This document shows, piece by piece, positions 8,414-64,000 of a stretch of DNA of 64,000 bases (position 1 is the stretch's first letter; each line of letters starts with the position of its first letter). The stretch is from Deltaproteobacteria bacterium (lineage in GTDB: Bacteria; Desulfobacterota; Binatia; DP-6). Under the pieces are notes generated by a model. The model was not told the origin of the DNA. It ran no database searches and saw only the letters and a list, made by a program, of their open reading frames with translations. The translations under genes and the position numbers were made by a program. The stretch lies in the NCBI GenBank assembly GCA_005888095.1, contig VBKF01000090.1, positions 1 through 64,000 of the forward strand, in the 5' to 3' direction.

Positions 8414-8453
8414 GCGGGCGTCGACGGGATGCCGTTCTCTCATGGGCGCCGGG

Positions 8454-10358
8454 TCACTGCACGTAGCCGAGGGCCCGGAGCCGATCGCCGAAGCTCGCAT
8501 CGTACCCCGAGGGCTGCGGTGGGGCTGGCACGGTCTCCCGCCAGCGCTGCAGGACCTGTCTCATCGAGTCGCCCTCGGGCGCGGTGCCGTATCGGTTCTC
8601 GCGCTCGGCGGGGTCGCGGCCGAGGTCGTAGAGCTCGAAGCGCCCGAGCGCGGGCGCGTGTATCAGCTTCCAGCCCGCCATGACGAGCGACAGGACCTCG
8701 ATACGGTTTCCCGCCGGCGCGATCCCCACGGCGGTCTCGGACACGGCGGCGCCGGCCCCTCCCCCGCGCAGCAGGTTACGACCCGGTAGGCCAGGGGGCG
8801 TGGCGATGCCCAGCAAGGCTGTGATCGTCGGGAAGAGATCGATGCCCTGGGCGAGGTCCGTGCGGCGTCCCGCACGGACTCCCGGGCCGAAGATCACGAG
8901 CGGGACCCGGATGGATTCCTGATAGAGCTGTGACCCGTGCCTGAGCCGCCCGTGTTCCTGGAACTCCTCGCCATGGTCGGCCGTCACGATGACGAGCGTG
9001 GAGTCCCGCACGCCGAAGGCCGCGAGGCCATCGAGCAGCATTGCGAGCTCTGCATCCCAGGCCCCGACCTCGCCGTGGTAGAGGTGCCGGAGATGCCCGA
9101 TCTCCGCCGCCGAGAGGGGCGGGGCTCCCTTCCTGTTCAGCGCGTCGGCCGTGTCCCGCACCCAGCCCGCGGCGATCGCGGGACGGACGCCCGCGGGGGC
9201 GGCCGGCCGGAACGCGGCGGGAGGCGTGTATGGATCGTGGGGCTCCATGTAGTGGAGGTAGGCGACGAAACGGTGGCCACGGTTGCGCTCCAGCCAGCGC
9301 AGGAACGTCCGGTTGACCGCTGCCGCCGGCGTCCAGTTCCGGCCCGCCGGGTCCCAGCTGAACTCCACGAACGTCTCGAAGCCCTGGGCCAGGTTGGTTG
9401 CCCGCGAGACGAGGGGATTGGCCGATACCCCCACCGTCGTGATGCCGGCGTGCGCTGCCTGCTCGGCCCACGTGGTCACCGCGTCGCTCAGCAGCTCTCC
9501 GCGGCCGCGCTCGTCGTCGTCGACCGGCTGGCTCCTCACCGCCCCGTGGCTGCGCGGATGCAGGCCGCTGAGGAGCGAGGCCACCGACGGGAGAGTCCAG
9601 CTCGACTGCGCGACGGCGTGCTCGAACACCAACCCTTCGGCCGCCAGGCGGTCGAGCGTAGGCGTCCGGCTCGGTTCGGCACCGTAGGCGCCGACGGCGT
9701 CCGCACGCAGCGTGTCGACCAGCAGCACGAGGACGTTCGGCGTCCCGGGCGCGGCCGGCTGCCGGTCACGCACGGTGTCGCGGACGGCCCGAACGCGGGT
9801 CCAACCCGGCGCCCCGGCGGGCGGCCGATCGCGGCGTTCGGCGACCGTCTCGAGCACGATCTCGACCGGGCGGTCGACGTCGAGCCCGAGGTCGATTCGC
9901 TCGTCGAACCAGCGCCGGTCGCGGTGGTGCGCGGCGGGGTTGACGAGCCGCTGGTACAGCCTGCGCCCGTCGACGGTCACGATGAAGCGCACGCCGCTCG
10001 CGCGCTCTCGCCGGCCTGGCGTGGTCTCCATGCCGGCACCGAAGCGCAGCGCGGCGCCGGCGGGCAACGTGGCGCGGAAGCGGATGCGGGCTCCGGGCGG
10101 CGCCACGATCGCCCGGCGCGCGCCGGCGCCGCGTAGCGGCTCCCCGGGCTGCACGACTCCCTGACGCACGAGGGCGTCGGGGGCCTCGGCCGCGACGTTG
10201 TCACGGTCGAACGCCGCGCTCAGGTCGGCGATCACGTCCTCGGTGACGATCCGCGCCGGAAGAGAGAACTCACGCGAGCGGAGTCGGACCCATACGACGG
10301 CGGCGCCGACGAGGAGCGCCACGCCCGCAGCCACTCGCCGACGGCCGTGCGGCGTCAT
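8454..10358 (-). CDS. Sulfatase-like hydrolase/transferase A (membrane-anchored, Thr-type)
   Basis: A 634-residue protein. Residues about 8-25 form a membrane anchor, residues about 30-200 a beta-rich extracytoplasmic domain shared with the two paralogues upstream, and residues 205 onward an alkaline-phosphatase-superfamily domain. Metal-site motifs are clear: LLVDTLRADAVGAYG and TADHGEEFQEHG. The nucleophile region reads SWTLPSVASLLSG. The Cys/Ser-x-Pro-x-Arg motif of formylglycine sulfatases is absent and Thr occupies the position, as in phosphoethanolamine and phosphoglycerol transferases. It may thus move or remove a phospho- or sulfo-group on a surface glycan. The start is ATG 10358, overlapping the upstream transferase stop. 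The protein ends LRALGYVQ, a C-terminal motif shared by all four such proteins here. Confidence 0.88.
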   Translation of the reverse strand: MTPHGRRRVAAGVALLVGAAVVWVRLRSREFSLPARIVTEDVIADLSAAFDRDNVAAEAPDALVRQGVVQPGEPLRGAGARRAIVAPPGARIRFRATLPAGAALRFGAGMETTPGRRERASGVRFIVTVDGRRLYQRLVNPAAHHRDRRWFDERIDLGLDVDRPVEIVLETVAERRDRPPAGAPGWTRVRAVRDTVRDRQPAAPGTPNVLVLLVDTLRADAVGAYGAEPSRTPTLDRLAAEGLVFEHAVAQSSWTLPSVASLLSGLHPRSHGAVRSQPVDDDERGRGELLSDAVTTWAEQAAHAGITTVGVSANPLVSRATNLAQGFETFVEFSWDPAGRNWTPAAAVNRTFLRWLERNRGHRFVAYLHYMEPHDPYTPPAAFRPAAPAGVRPAIAAGWVRDTADALNRKGAPPLSAAEIGHLRHLYHGEVGAWDAELAMLLDGLAAFGVRDSTLVIVTADHGEEFQEHGRLRHGSQLYQESIRVPLVIFGPGVRAGRRTDLAQGIDLFPTITALLGIATPPGLPGRNLLRGGGAGAAVSETAVGIAPAGNRIEVLSLVMAGWKLIHAPALGRFELYDLGRDPAERENRYGTAPEGDSMRQVLQRWRETVPAPPQPSGYDASFGDRLRALGYVQ

Positions 10359-11293
10359 CGCCCGGTCGTCCGGACCACACCCAGCCGCCGCACCGCTCGG
10401 AGCGTGGCGCTCGGGAGCAGCAACGCGGCAAGCGCACCGGCGGCGGGGCGGCTTGCCACCGTGCGCGGGCACTCGCGGAGCGCCCGGCCTGCGAGCCCGA
10501 TCGCCGTCGAGCGGTCCTCGGCGGCCATGGATGCGGCGTCGTACCAGTAGAGGCGGGCGCGGGCGGCCGCGCGGCTGAGGTGCGCCAGGCGGGGCATGTC
10601 GCTCTCGAGGTAGAGCCGGTCGACCACCCGCAAGCCGCCCTCGAGCACCTTGGCGCGTGCCGTGTTGTCGCCGTGCACCCGGTAGAGCGTGAGCTCCTCG
10701 TCGACGACCGCCACGGGGTACCGCCGGGCGAGGCGCAGCCAGAGGTCCCAGTCCTCGCACGCGTGCAGGGTGGCCTCGAAGGCGCCGACGGCCTCGAGGC
10801 AGGTGCGACGTACGAGCACGGACGCGAGGATGATGACGTTCCCGCGCATCAGCCGGGGCAGGATCCAGCCGGAGACCGCCCGGAGCGGCTTGCGGGTGAG
10901 GAGCTCGCGGCCCGCTGCGTCGATGAAGCGCGCCGCCGTGTAGCAGAGGCCTGCGGCCGGGTCGGCGGCGAGCGTGGCGACCTGCCGGGCGAGCTTCTCC
11001 GGCCGCCAGAGGTCGTCGGCATCGAGGAAGGCGACGAGCGGCCCCGACGACATGGCGATGCCCCGGTTGCGCGCCGCGGACCGTCCCGCTCGCGTCTGGA
11101 GAACGTAACGGATGCGGGGGTCATCTGCATGACCGCCCACCACGCGCCGGGTATCGTCGGTGGAGCCGTCGTCGACGATGACGAGCTCCCAGTCCTGGAA
11201 CGTCTGCCGGCGGACGCTGTCGATCGTCGCACCCAGCCAGCGTGCGCTGTTGTAGGTCCCGATGACGACGCTCACCGTGGGCATGGCGGTCAT
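10355..11293 (-). CDS. Family 2 glycosyltransferase
   Basis: A 312-residue cytoplasmic GT-A enzyme. The N-terminus is VSVVIGTYNSARWLGATIDS, followed by VIVDDGSTDDT and the metal-binding motif AFLDADDLW near residue 90, and a CEDWDLWLRLA acceptor-side motif near residue 185. The C-terminal third is helical. It probably adds one sugar to the growing glycan from an NDP-sugar donor. It sits between sulfatase-like A and B, overlapping both by 4 bases (ATGA), so the three are one translationally coupled unit. A second ATG three codons downstream (11284) is an alternative start. Sugar specificity cannot be read from the sequence. Confidence 0.9.
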   Translation of the reverse strand: MTAMPTVSVVIGTYNSARWLGATIDSVRRQTFQDWELVIVDDGSTDDTRRVVGGHADDPRIRYVLQTRAGRSAARNRGIAMSSGPLVAFLDADDLWRPEKLARQVATLAADPAAGLCYTAARFIDAAGRELLTRKPLRAVSGWILPRLMRGNVIILASVLVRRTCLEAVGAFEATLHACEDWDLWLRLARRYPVAVVDEELTLYRVHGDNTARAKVLEGGLRVVDRLYLESDMPRLAHLSRAAARARLYWYDAASMAAEDRSTAIGLAGRALRECPRTVASRPAAGALAALLLPSATLRAVRRLGVVRTTGR

Positions 11294-13179
11294 TCGACGT
11301 AGCCGAGGGCACGCAGCTTCTCGGGGAAAGCTGGATCGTAATACGTCATAACTGGCGGGGAGGGCGCAGCGGATTCCCAGGCCGCAAGCGTCTCGCGCAG
11401 CGCGGCCCCCTGCGGGACGGCGCCAAAGCGATCGTCGTGCTCGCCGGGATCGTGCGCGAGGTCGTAGAGCTCCGAACGCCCGAGCGCCGGCGCGTGGATC
11501 AGCTTCCACTCGGGCGTGCGGAGCGAGAGGAGTCGGGTCTCCGTCCCGTCGGGACCGATCGCGTTGCGGGTCTCGGAGATCGCCGGCCGAGCGGCGCGAG
11601 CGGCGAGCAGGTTCTGCCCTTCGAGCCCCGGTGGGGGCGGGAGCCCGAGCAGCGCGCTGACCGTCGGGAAGACGTCGATGCCCTGCGCCTGCTCGGCGAC
11701 GCGGCCGGGGACGATGCCGGGACCGGCGATGACCAGCGGAACGCGCAGCAGCTCGTCGTACAGCTGGGTGCCGTGCCCGAGGCGGCCATGCTCCTGGAAT
11801 TCCTCGCCGTGGTCCGCGGTCACCAGGATCACGGTCGATTCACGCACCCCGGCAGCCGCGAGCCCCTCGAGCAGACCGCCGAGCGCCGTGTCCCAGGTCC
11901 GCACCTCCGCCTGGTACAGCGCCCGGAGGTGGCCCACGGCTGCCGGCCCGAGGGGCGCGTGTCGGCCGTGGTTGATCGCCAGCATGAGGTCCTTCACGTG
12001 TCCACGCGCGACCGCGGGCGCAATGCCCTCCGGCGGGACCGGCCGCAGGGCGGCAGGTGGATCGTAGGGCTCGTGCGGCTCCATGTAGTGGAGGTAGGCG
12101 AGGAAGCGCCGGCCGGGGTTCTGGTGGAGCCAGTCGAGGAAGACGCCGTTCACGTCGCTCGCGCGCGCCTCCTCGCGGCTGTCCCGGTTCTCCGGCAGCG
12201 CGATGAAGGTCTCGAAGCCTCGCGCGAGGTTGGTTTCGCGGGAGACCACGAAGTTCGCCGACACGCCGATCGTCGTGATGCCGCCCTGCTCGGCGTGAGC
12301 GGCAAGGGTCGGCAGCGTGTCCGCGAGAAAGCTCGCCTGGACCCGGTCCCCGGTGAGGCCGTGGCTCGTCGGATGGAGGCCCGTGAAGATGGACGCGACC
12401 GAGGGCACCGTCCACGGCGCCTGGGCAATCGCGCTCTCGAACACGAGCCCTTGCCGCGCGAGCCGATCGAGGCTCGGGCTGGGGCTCGGGGCGGCACCGT
12501 AGCAACCGAGCTGGTCGGCGCGCAGCGTGTCCACCAGGAGGAGGAGCACGTTCGGCGCGTCGGGGCCCGCCGGCTGGCGGTCGCGGTGCGTCTGGTGGAG
12601 CACGCGCACGTGGCTCCAGCCCGGTATCCCGGACGGCCGACGCGCGGGCACGGCGACGTCCGTGCTGAGCGTGAGCTCTACCTCACGTTCGGCGAGGCGG
12701 CCCAGCTCGACGCGGTCGTCGAACCAGCGACGGTCGCGGTGGCTGGCGGCGGGGTCGATGGTGCGGGCGAAGACCTCCTCGCCGTCGATGCTCACCGAGA
12801 AGCGGATGCCGGCCAGGCGCGTGTCCCGGGTCGCGGGCCCCTGCACCCCGGTGCTCAGCTCGAGGGCGGCGTCGGCGGGAAGGCGGAGGCGATGGCGAAG
12901 GCGCGACGGCGGTGGCGCCAGGAGGGCGGGCCGGCGGCCGCCGTGCAGCTTGTAGTAGGGATTCGGCTCGAGCTCGCCCGCGCGGACGGGCGCATCGGAG
13001 GGCTCGGCCACCACGGCGCTGCGGTCGAGCGTTCCGGAGAGGTCGGCGACGACGTTCTCGATCGTGATGCGGGAGGGCAGGCGGAGCCGGGTCGAGCGGC
13101 GCGCGACGCGGTCGACCGCGAACGCGAGGGCGAGACAGAGCCCGACGGCGCTCACGACCGCGATCCGCGGGGGAGTCAT
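11290..13179 (-). CDS. Sulfatase-like hydrolase/transferase B (membrane-anchored, Thr-type)
   Basis: A 629-residue paralogue of the genes at 8454 and 13176. It has an N-terminal anchor (residues about 5-22), a beta-rich domain containing ASHRDRRWFDDRVEL, then the catalytic domain with LLVDTLRADQLGCYG, the nucleophile region APWTVPSVASIFTG (Thr where Cys or Ser is expected) and TADHGEEFQEHGRLGHG. It ends LRALGYVE. The family is usually annotated as sulfatase-like, but without the Cys/Ser-x-Pro-x-Arg motif it should not carry formylglycine. The ATG at 13179 overlaps the stop of paralogue C. Tandem position and shared domain order indicate duplication followed by divergence. Confidence 0.88.
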   Translation of the reverse strand: MTPPRIAVVSAVGLCLALAFAVDRVARRSTRLRLPSRITIENVVADLSGTLDRSAVVAEPSDAPVRAGELEPNPYYKLHGGRRPALLAPPPSRLRHRLRLPADAALELSTGVQGPATRDTRLAGIRFSVSIDGEEVFARTIDPAASHRDRRWFDDRVELGRLAEREVELTLSTDVAVPARRPSGIPGWSHVRVLHQTHRDRQPAGPDAPNVLLLLVDTLRADQLGCYGAAPSPSPSLDRLARQGLVFESAIAQAPWTVPSVASIFTGLHPTSHGLTGDRVQASFLADTLPTLAAHAEQGGITTIGVSANFVVSRETNLARGFETFIALPENRDSREEARASDVNGVFLDWLHQNPGRRFLAYLHYMEPHEPYDPPAALRPVPPEGIAPAVARGHVKDLMLAINHGRHAPLGPAAVGHLRALYQAEVRTWDTALGGLLEGLAAAGVRESTVILVTADHGEEFQEHGRLGHGTQLYDELLRVPLVIAGPGIVPGRVAEQAQGIDVFPTVSALLGLPPPPGLEGQNLLAARAARPAISETRNAIGPDGTETRLLSLRTPEWKLIHAPALGRSELYDLAHDPGEHDDRFGAVPQGAALRETLAAWESAAPSPPVMTYYDPAFPEKLRALGYVE

Positions 13180-15056
13180 TCGACGTATCCCAGCGCGCGC
13201 AGCTTCGCACGGAGATCTCGATCGCCCTCCGTCACCGGGGGCGCGGGAGGCGCCTCGGCCTCGAGCGCGGCGAGCTGCTGCAGGAAGGCCGCGGCCTGCG
13301 GCGCCGTCGCGAACCGGTCCTCTCGCTCCGCCGGATCGTGCTCGAGGTCGTAGAGCTCCGAGCGCCCGAGCGCGGGCGCGTGGATGAGCTTCCAGGATGG
13401 TGTGCGCAGGGAGACGAGCGCCGCTCCCGTGCCGTCGGGAAGGCGTCCGTTCAGAGTCTCCGAGACGACGGCACGAGGTTGCCGGGCGCCGAGCAGGTTC
13501 TGTCCCGGCAGCTCCGGGGACGGAGAGAGCTCCAGCAGGGCGGACACGGTGGGGAAGAGATCGATCCCCTGGGCCAGCTCGCTCACGCGCCCGGCGATCA
13601 TCCCGGGCCCCGCGATCACGAGGGGCACGTGCAACGTCTCCTCGTAGAGATGCGCGCCGTGCATCAGGCGTCCGTGCTCCTGGAACTCCTCCCCGTGATC
13701 CGCGGTGACCAGGACGACCGTGGACGTGCGCAGCCCGAGCTCGTCGAGCCGATGGAGGAGCACGCCGAGCGCGTCGTCCCAGGAACGGACCTCGGCGTCG
13801 TACAGGCGGCGCAGGTAGCGGACCTCCTGATCGGGCAGCAGCATCCCCTCGGCCGACAGGAGCTCGTGCACCCACTGGTCGAGATGGCCCGCAGCGACGC
13901 GCGGGCGGATGCCGGCGGGCGGCGGCGGGCGGTAGCGCGCGGGCGGCGTGTAGGGGTGATGCGGCTCCATGTAGTGAAGGTACGCGAGGAAGCGATAGCG
14001 TCGATTCGGGCGCAGCCAGCGGAGGAACGCCTCGTTGACCTCGCTGGCCGTCGCCCAGGTCTTCTCGCGCACCCGACCGTCGTCCCGTGGCGCGAGCTCC
14101 AGCTCCTCGAAGGTCTCGAACCCCTGCGCGTAGTTGGTCGCACGCGAGACCAGCGGGTTGGCCGAGATGCCGACCGTCGAGATGCCGGCGGCGGCGGCGT
14201 GCTCGGCCAGGGTGAGGAGCCTGTCGGGCAGGTACGCGGCGTGTCCGTCGTCGAGGGCGCCGGGGTCTCCGGTCACGCCGTGGCTGCGGACGGGTACCCC
14301 GGTCAGGAGCGAGGCGACGGAGGGCATCGTCCATGGGGCCTGCGCGATCGCGTTCTCGAACACGAGCCCTTCCCGCGCGAGCTGGTCGAGGGTCGGGCTG
14401 GCGCTCGGGGCGGCCCCGTACGGCCCGAGGCTGTCCGCACGCAGCGTGTCGACGAGGAGCACGAGCACGTTCCGGGCGGCCGGAGCGGCCGCCTGCCGCT
14501 CGCGCCGCGTGTCACGCACCACGCGCACGTGGCTCCAGCCCGCCGTGCCGCACGGCCGCCGCCCCGGGTCCGACGTCGAGGTCTCGAGGACGATCTCGAC
14601 CTCGCGATCGCCGAAGGCGCCGAGATCGACGCGCTCGTCGAACCAGCGACGGTCACGTCGCCGAGCGGCCGGGTTGACGGCGCGGGCGAAGAGCCCGCGT
14701 CCGTCGGCGGTCACCCTGAAGCGGACGTCGGCGGTCTTGGCATCGCGCCGGCCGTCGCCTTGCACGCCCACGCCGAAGCGGAGCGCAGCATGCGGGGGCA
14801 CACGCATGCGGTAGTGGAGCGAGGAGGGCGACGGCGTGACCATGGCCTCGCGCATACCCGCATCGGCGCGCAACTCGTGGCCCGGGTGGAACCTGGTGAG
14901 GGAGACGGGCATGTCGGGCGCGGGTGACAACTCGGCGACCAGCTCCTCGGTGTGGAGCTGGCTCGGCAAACGCTGGCTGCGGCCCCAGAAGAGGGCAAGG
15001 GCGGCCGCACCGGCCGCCGCCGCGAACGTGGCGGCGGCGCCCTGGCGCCACGTCAT
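13176..15056 (-). CDS. Sulfatase-like hydrolase/transferase C (membrane-anchored, Thr-type)
   Basis: A 626-residue third member of the tandem set: a hydrophobic N-terminus (residues 5-25), a beta-rich domain with RRRDRRWFDERVDLG, then LLVDTLRADSLGPYG, APWTMPSVASLLTG and TADHGEEFQEHGRLMHG. As in A and B, Thr sits in the nucleophile position. The C-terminus is LRALGYVE. The extracytoplasmic beta domain begins with an SQLHTEELVAELS segment that is recognisable in all three. It starts 13 bases after the stop of the fused glycosyltransferase upstream and probably belongs to the same transcript. The acceptor could be a surface polysaccharide or lipid. The sequence does not say which. Confidence 0.88.
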   Translation of the reverse strand: MTWRQGAAATFAAAAGAAALALFWGRSQRLPSQLHTEELVAELSPAPDMPVSLTRFHPGHELRADAGMREAMVTPSPSSLHYRMRVPPHAALRFGVGVQGDGRRDAKTADVRFRVTADGRGLFARAVNPAARRRDRRWFDERVDLGAFGDREVEIVLETSTSDPGRRPCGTAGWSHVRVVRDTRRERQAAAPAARNVLVLLVDTLRADSLGPYGAAPSASPTLDQLAREGLVFENAIAQAPWTMPSVASLLTGVPVRSHGVTGDPGALDDGHAAYLPDRLLTLAEHAAAAGISTVGISANPLVSRATNYAQGFETFEELELAPRDDGRVREKTWATASEVNEAFLRWLRPNRRYRFLAYLHYMEPHHPYTPPARYRPPPPAGIRPRVAAGHLDQWVHELLSAEGMLLPDQEVRYLRRLYDAEVRSWDDALGVLLHRLDELGLRTSTVVLVTADHGEEFQEHGRLMHGAHLYEETLHVPLVIAGPGMIAGRVSELAQGIDLFPTVSALLELSPSPELPGQNLLGARQPRAVVSETLNGRLPDGTGAALVSLRTPSWKLIHAPALGRSELYDLEHDPAEREDRFATAPQAAAFLQQLAALEAEAPPAPPVTEGDRDLRAKLRALGYVE

Positions 15057-62723: not shown

Positions 62724-63560
62724 ATGGCACGGGAGCACGACCGGATCCGTGACGAGTGGCAGGCGGTCGCGGGCGGCTGGCGGCGATGGGAGCCCCTCTT
62801 CCAGTCCTTCACCTGGCCGGTGGCGCTGCGCATGGCGGCGGTCGCGCAGATCGGCGCCGGGCAGCGCGTCCTCGACGTCGGCTGCGGCATCGGTGACCCG
62901 ACCCTCCAGGTGGCCGTGCTCGTCGGCCCGCACGGGCGCGTGCTCGGCATCGACCTGGTCGAGGAGATGCTGGCGACGGGCCGCGAGCGGGCGGCGGCGC
63001 TCGGCCTCGCCCACGTGGAGTTCCGCGCCGCCGACATCGCGACGCTCGACGTCCCCGCGGCGAGCTTCGACGCCGTGCTCGCCCGCTGGAGTCTCATCTA
63101 CCTGGACGCTGTCTCGGGTGCCCTCGCCCGTCTGCGCCGGGCCCTCGGGGCCGGGGGCCGGATCGCCGTGACCGCCTGGGCGCCGCCCGCGGACAACCCG
63201 TGGATCGCGATCCCGATGGAGGAGCTCGCGCGGGTGCTGCCCGTTCCGCCTCCGGACCCCGCCGCGCCGGGGCTGTTCTACCTGTCGGCCGACGGCGCGC
63301 TCGCCGAGGCGCTGCGCGCGGCGGGCTTCCGTAACGTCGCCCAGGAGCGCGTGCAGCTCTCGCAGTTCGCCCGCGAGGTGAGCGAGTTCTGGGCGATGCT
63401 GGCCGACATGGCCGGGCCGCTGGCCCCGCTGGTCGCCGGCCTCGCCGGTCCCGAGCGCGAGCGGGTCATGCGCTCGGTGAGCGAGCGGCTCGGGCGTTTC
63501 CGGAGCGGCGACGTCTTCCGCATCCCCGCGCAGGCGCAGCTCGCCTGGGGCGAGCTCTAG
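62724..63560 (+). CDS. Class I SAM-dependent methyltransferase (UbiE/Methyltransf_11 type)
   Basis: A 278-residue protein with motif I VLDVGCGIGDPTLQVAVLVG, acidic loop LGIDLVEEMLATGRER, ADIATLDVPAASFDAVLARW (motifs II-IV) and GGRIAVTAWAPP. Similar proteins act on quinone rings or small molecules. No genetic context fixes the substrate. Start ATG 62724 is 40 bases from the divergent hydrolase start. The TAG is followed within 5 bases by the first hairpin of the repeat cluster. Confidence 0.85.
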   Translation: MAREHDRIRDEWQAVAGGWRRWEPLFQSFTWPVALRMAAVAQIGAGQRVLDVGCGIGDPTLQVAVLVGPHGRVLGIDLVEEMLATGRERAAALGLAHVEFRAADIATLDVPAASFDAVLARWSLIYLDAVSGALARLRRALGAGGRIAVTAWAPPADNPWIAIPMEELARVLPVPPPDPAAPGLFYLSADGALAEALRAAGFRNVAQERVQLSQFAREVSEFWAMLADMAGPLAPLVAGLAGPERERVMRSVSERLGRFRSGDVFRIPAQAQLAWGEL

Positions 63561-63564
63561 GAGC

Positions 63565-63962
63565 GCGACCCAAGACATCTTGGGTCGCGAACCGGACGCG
63601 AGGGTGTTCCGTCGCGATCACGCCCGACTGTCCTGCCGCGGCTGGCGAAGCCAGCGCGGCAGACGAACACGCGCGGTTCCACGGCCACCGCAGACAGGCC
63701 CAATCGGCAACCGATAAACATGAGTGCCGCGAGACCTCTGGAACGGCGCGTGTCGGTTGTGCCGCGCTGGCTTCGCCAGCCGCGGCACGGCGGTCGCGCG
63801 TGCCGCGAGCGCCACATGCTCGCGTCCGTGCCCGCGACCCAAGAAGTCTTGGGTCGCGCTCCTAGTAGGCCGACCCAAGACTTCGTCTTGGGTCGCAAAG
63901 CGAGAATGTGCGCCGCGTGAGCACGCGACCGTAATGCCGCGGCCGGCGAAGCCGGCGCGGCA
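63565..63962. repeat. Cluster of six palindromic hairpins in two interleaved families
   Basis: Family A (GCGACCCAAGA...TCTTGGGTCGC, about 24 bases) occurs at 63565-63588, 63834-63857 and 63871-63895. Family B (TGCCGCG-CTGGC-GAA-GCCAG-CGCGGCA, 28 bases) occurs at 63634-63661, 63760-63787 (opposite orientation, loop TTC) and 63935-63962. Stems stay paired where sequences differ (CTGGC/GCCAG against CCGGC/GCCGG), a sign of selection on structure. The order is A, B, B reversed, A, A, B. The 440-base region holds no convincing gene. Possibilities are REP/BIME elements, terminators or nucleoid-protein sites. Confidence 0.85.
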
Positions 63963-64000
63963 AAACGAGCCGGACACGTCAACGACCCGAAGCCCGCAGG

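Follow-up and report, generated by a model that had tools for sequence, protein, structure and literature searches.

Positions 63,561 to 64,000 of the window (the whole stretch of 64,000 nucleotides analysed here) contain six hairpins of two types, and the locus raises the question of whether these are an array of independent palindromic repeats or parts of a larger unit. The original prediction described them as an interleaved mosaic of two hairpin families, present in both orientations, with compensating stem changes and a resemblance to BIMEs. All six hairpins were found at the positions given, and the TGCCGCG-type hairpin does occur in reversed orientation (Table 1). CGACCCAAGA was seen six times in the window compared with 0.07 expected from shuffling, and all six occurrences lay within the hairpin stretch. 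The mosaic itself did not stand, however: both hairpins are fixed parts of one element of ~309 bp, each copy of which has the order CTAG, terminal hairpin, inner hairpin, centre, inner hairpin, terminal hairpin, CTAG.

As shown in Table 1, the window holds one complete copy and the beginning of a second, and the CTAG at 63862-63865 is common to the two, serving as the right border of copy 1 and the left border of copy 2. The array had been described as starting 5 bases past a stop codon, and this TAG indeed sits within the CTAG that borders the element. The end motif of the element is TA-GGAGCGCGACCC. Each end is an inverted repeat able to pair with itself as a hairpin, and the element as a whole is nearly palindromic; the 309-bp unit, taken as a single strand, forms one long fold-back (z ~ -18 for DNA and ~ -20 for RNA). 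Copy 2 occupies L040:2862-3132 on the contig. The expectation that the array might be longer than the window was correct in that copy 2 runs past the edge, but it continues only to ~64132, ~132 bases beyond, and there the array stops. At this far end the outer TA is lost, and GCTCCCCG is found in place of GCTCCTAG. In a separate part of the window (8453-14730), we observed three long direct repeats that are 63-78% identical and spaced by ~2.8 and 1.9 kb; these are probably tandem paralogous genes.

Table 1. Window coordinates of the two element copies, their parts and the upstream reading frame
Feature	Position	Strand	Remarks
Upstream methyltransferase-like ORF, 278 aa (function judged from sequence only)	62724..63560	+	L040:1724-2560; TAG stop (63558-63560) inside the bordering CTAG
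Element copy 1, complete 309-bp MITE-like unit, CTAG to CTAG	63557..63865	.	
Left TIR with terminal hairpin GCGACCCAAGA-CA-TCTTGGGTCGC	63557..63589	+	33 nt, 97% complementary to 63833-63865 (repeat search); GCGACCCAAGA-type hairpin at ~63565-63588
Left inner hairpin TGCCGCGGCTGGCGAAGCCAGCGCGGCA	63634..63661	+	TGCCGCG type; retained in nearly all aligned copies
Right inner hairpin	63760..63787	-	TGCCGCG type, reverse orientation; exact reverse complement of left inner hairpin 63634-63661
Right TIR with terminal hairpin GCGACCCAAGA-AG-TCTTGGGTCGC	63833..63865	-	GCGACCCAAGA-type hairpin at 63834-63857
Element copy 2, 271-bp subfamily	63862..64000	.	Cut by the window edge
Copy 2 left terminal hairpin, longer-loop variant	63871..63896	+	GCGACCCAAGA type
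Copy 2 left inner hairpin	63935..63962	+	TGCCGCG type; stem CCGG/CCGG replacing CTGG/CCAG

The genome from which the window comes (G000, a soil bacterium) is a draft of 271 contigs, some of which terminate inside these elements. A search with the exact pattern of the terminal hairpin gave 57 matches in this genome, mostly as pairs 269 bp apart, compared with none for the reversed control pattern, and the inner hairpins recur alongside in aligned copies. These 57 hairpins across the genome rule out a purely local duplication. The 309-bp unit gave ~20 full-length matches in G000 at 83-100% identity on the best strand; among 20 full copies the median identity was 92.6%, and some pairs of copies were 100% identical. 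Copy 1 matched C127:34089-34397 and C92:60523-60831 at 100% (rounded) over 309 bp and ten or more other copies at 95-96%. The 26 elements measured in G000 were 270-311 bp long and fell into a main form of 307-311 bp and a subfamily of 270-271 bp, further 271-bp members of which were found on C21, C97, C178, C210 and C221. The copies show the MITE features examined: they are short, lack a transposase gene, are near-identical with fixed ends and carry 33-bp TIRs. Solo hairpins are rare relics in G000, where hairpins otherwise lie within the fixed 309/271-bp units. One such relic (C94:55691) consists of 40 bp, CTAG-hairpin-CTAG, and the corresponding gene end in G001 holds a full element. Being palindromes, the terminal hairpins are also direct repeats, and deletion of the interior would leave a product of this kind.

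A second repeat family was observed in G000 at L088:3048-3178 (C97:36547) and ~30 further places, for example C140:39727, C161:11850 and C91:38007. Its ~32 copies are ~110-130 bp long, 87-100% identical and contain GC-rich hairpins; the left end is ragged, and the right end is usually fixed as GAT followed by CTAG, CTAA, TTAG or TTAA, an arrangement suggestive of the opposing gene's stop codon.

Most of the elements measured in G000 have CTAG at both borders. When joined flanks were searched in sister genomes, orthologous empty sites carried a single CTAG in G001 (L052, L054 and L076) and the altered forms CTA, CTAC and GTAG elsewhere; one CTAG at the empty site and two at the occupied site show that the target is duplicated. 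One copy, at C92:60523, lies within a tyrosine-transposase relic and splits it; the frame of the relic is continuous across a single CTAG (GLVGLDERP). The empty orthologous sites, together with the 100% identical copy pairs, show that the element has spread recently. Insertions shared between genera were set aside as evidence of age, since two genomes that each place tens of copies at a small number of CTAG gene ends may share sites by chance. As the duplicated unit, TA and CTAG both fit the G000 copies and are indistinguishable there, whereas copies in G005, which belongs to another genus of the family, favour TA. There, TA was present 4-8 nt outside the hairpin at 24 of 39 ends, compared with 5% by chance, and this figure is conservative, since ~5 of these ends may be inner sides that the script assigned wrongly. 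The bases around this TA vary and the outer bases are unequal, as in L138 (A-TA...TA-T). Since TA remains constant while the surrounding bases vary, the duplicated unit is likely TA rather than all four bases of CTAG.

The whole insertion pattern fits a MITE-like non-autonomous transposon that duplicates TA inside CTAG, in the IS630/Tc1-mariner manner. We put the probability at roughly 75% that the stretch consists of two adjacent copies of a MITE-like element that inserts at the TA in CTAG, with an enzyme of the IS630/Tc1-mariner group as its probable mobiliser. A preference of IS630 for TA in CTAG is named in the title of a paper by Tenzen & Ohtsubo (1991) listed in PMC2170065. Two of the IS630-type (PF13358) loci, one in G001 (L106) and one in G002 (L107), have inverted repeats that start in CTAGTGG, indicating that this group uses CTAG in these genomes; the inner ends of these IS630 elements differ from those of the hairpin element. 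PF13358 had no match in G000 or G005. No autonomous copy with the same ends was found among G000 sites allowing up to three mismatches, and no autonomous partner with matching ends and a DDE_3 transposase was found in these draft genomes, where absence is not proof. Unpaired TAGGAGCGCGACCC sites in G002, considered as candidate autonomous copies, belonged mostly to a ~340-bp subfamily with CGACCCGAGA stems that is this genome's own. From the target and the ends, with no matching transposase found, a DDE enzyme of the IS630/Tc1-mariner type appears most likely.

It is possible, if rather unlikely, that the MITE is instead moved by an IS5-, IS701- or IS481-type enzyme and that the duplication comprises the 4 bp of CTAG/YTAR and not TA. 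MITEPsy1, which is marked "IS5?" and related to ISPsy2, duplicates 4 nt (PMC3189936), and the G000 copies fit a 4-bp CTAG duplication. However, the outer four bases of G005 copies are often unequal at the two ends around a constant TA, and PF01609 was absent from both G000 and G005 and PF00665 from G000.

The exact hairpin was found in 4 of the 58 genomes searched (G000 itself, G001, G002 and G005), all of one family, and 54 genomes were without it. Sister species have their own element subfamilies. Public records with the hairpin were mostly soil MAGs labelled Deltaproteobacteria (DP_26, DP_3); the hairpin was also observed on a 4.6-kb contig (L072, VAYC01000340.1) binned as an Actinobacteria MAG with the same soil sample label as DP_26, and this contig is possibly mis-binned. 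The compensating stem changes of the original prediction were confirmed both within the window and across species. In the inner stems, the CTGG/CCAG of copy 1 is replaced by CCGG/CCGG in copy 2 and by CCAG/CTGG in a relative. Among 21 distinct terminal hairpins, changes on both sides were seen at 4 of the 11 pairs, and 97.8% of pair cells were standard, a proportion biased upward since many hairpins were found by pairing (for the G002 set, the search used one arm only). The covariation score of the terminal hairpins exceeded those of all 500 shuffles.

An alternative is that these are REP/BIME-like repeats moved as single-stranded hairpins by a RAYT (HUH tyrosine transposase), with two inverted hairpins, each bearing a short conserved GGAG/CTAG tag at the foot, making up one mobile BIME. 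REPs are most often tagged GTAG and paired into BIMEs (PMC8266576); here, the compensating changes that keep the hairpins, the REP-like location at gene ends and the GGAG adjoining the hairpin foot all agree with such an origin. A RAYT partner was sought with PF01797 and with a five-member alignment, and RAYT-like matches, fragments included, numbered 13 in G000, 13 in G001 and 25 in G002. However, none of the RAYT-like copies examined was flanked by these hairpins, and neither model found a RAYT in G005 despite its 52 hairpins, so RAYT was rejected as the partner. Moreover, REPs do not feature a spacing of 269 bp, 33-bp inverted repeats or a duplication of CTAG/TA, and the recurring units are of 309/271 bp with CTAG/TA borders, not palindromes of 20-40 bp carrying a GTAG or CGTC tag at one end. 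We consider movement by RAYT improbable. RAYT-like transposases, for which the original prediction proposed a search, are thus present but, in the copies examined, unlinked to the hairpins, and the BIME resemblance survives in the gene-end location and the compensated stems but not in the architecture, which has defined ends and a duplicated CTAG/TA and does not consist of two independent REP families. The RAYT-like tyrosine transposase genes (for example, L118, L122, L213 and L214) are a family in their own right, with a weak match to NF047646 and, in several copies, a shared CCCTATTCAA-like stretch upstream; because this family is multi-copy with many fragments, it is probably mobile itself.

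DDE transposases have no need of hairpin ends, and this class alone leaves the compensating stem changes unexplained. Conceivably, an enzyme recognises the ends as hairpins, single-stranded or cruciform, and still duplicates TA in CTAG, with the element docking at stop codons genome-wide. We regard this as unlikely to be the case; if true, it would combine REP-like hairpin ends with MITE-like insertion and make use of the rarity of CTAG. A ~190-bp element in G001 (L291:1480 onward, C450) has the ends CTAGGAGC(A/G)CGACC without terminal hairpins, which suggests that the transposon end is defined by the shared end sequence and not by the hairpin.

The position of the copies relative to genes follows from the target. 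CTAG had the lowest observed/expected ratio of the tetranucleotides tested in the window (0.17, with 10 seen and 60 expected under a second-order Markov model). The copies were located at gene ends: 23 of the 26 G000 elements are placed at a TAG that terminates an open frame of 80 or more codons, and for 11 of these this holds on both sides. In G002, 16 of 17 elements are placed at such a TAG. Other CTAGs in the same loci were at such frame ends in 29 of 34 cases. These counts refer to open frames and not to called genes, and because such frames run long by chance in G+C-rich DNA, we quote as a control that, per strand, 27% of TAGs without a preceding C reach this frame length. The gene-end position is thus accounted for by a target that is depleted and mostly found at TAG gene ends. 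That the copies are selected 3'-end elements (bidirectional terminators or mRNA stabilisers), spread or kept for a benefit at gene ends and not parasites, is very doubtful. The location, often at convergent genes, the compensating stem changes and the strong fold (z ~ -18 to -20) would suit such a role, but several orthologous sites in sister genomes are empty, CTAG targeting already explains the location, and no T-tract or terminator-like site was found in the region. Rfam gave only chance matches far below gathering scores.

On the MITE-like reading, a gene-less element would be moved in trans by a transposase encoded elsewhere and would insert at the TA within CTAG, duplicating TA. With CTAG very rare and mostly present as C-TAG at gene ends, insertion would usually spare coding sequence and would give each of two convergent genes its own TAG. 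Hairpins thus placed in the 3' untranslated region may act on transcripts as ends or stabilisers. A selfish element of this kind can spread without breaking genes, since its CTAG target is mostly the end of a TAG-terminated gene. This offers a simple reason why some bacterial palindromic repeats resemble 3'-end regulatory elements, namely that a depleted CTAG target amounts to TAG gene ends. The family also lets hairpin conservation and transposition be separated by experiment, which bears on the origin of REP-like repeats.

Several known systems share parts of this design. The Streptococcus pneumoniae element RUP, a MITE ascribed to IS630-Spn1, is gene-free and present in ~100 intergenic copies with TIRs and a TA target (PMC2229807). 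RUP measures 107 bp, has repeats of 9 bp and has been given a proposed partner IS, whereas the present element has 33-bp self-complementary ends and a length of ~309 bp, and no partner was found for it. The Neisseria Correia/NEMIS elements are likewise TA-ended MITEs with inverted repeats, the transcripts of which are proposed to form stem-loops, but they are 107-155 bp long with other ends, and the passages of PMC2229807 consulted describe no docking at CTAG stop codons. MITEPsy1 of Pseudomonas syringae is a MITE targeting CTAG or YTAA (PMC3189936), but it is 100 bp long, has 18-bp repeats and a 4-nt duplication, and is linked to ISPsy2. REP/BIME systems with RAYT (GTAG- and CGTC-tagged REPs) also place conserved palindromes, frequently as inverted pairs, downstream of genes (PMC3733652), but REPs are 20-40 bp palindromes with these tags; the unit here is ~309 bp long, carries long inverted repeats and a CTAG/TA duplication, and shows no link to RAYT genes. 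A literature search for stop-codon docking of MITEs returned no match. Compared with the published MITEs RUP, Correia and MITEPsy1, the element differs in its self-complementary 33-bp ends, the palindrome formed by the whole element and its strong docking at stop codons.
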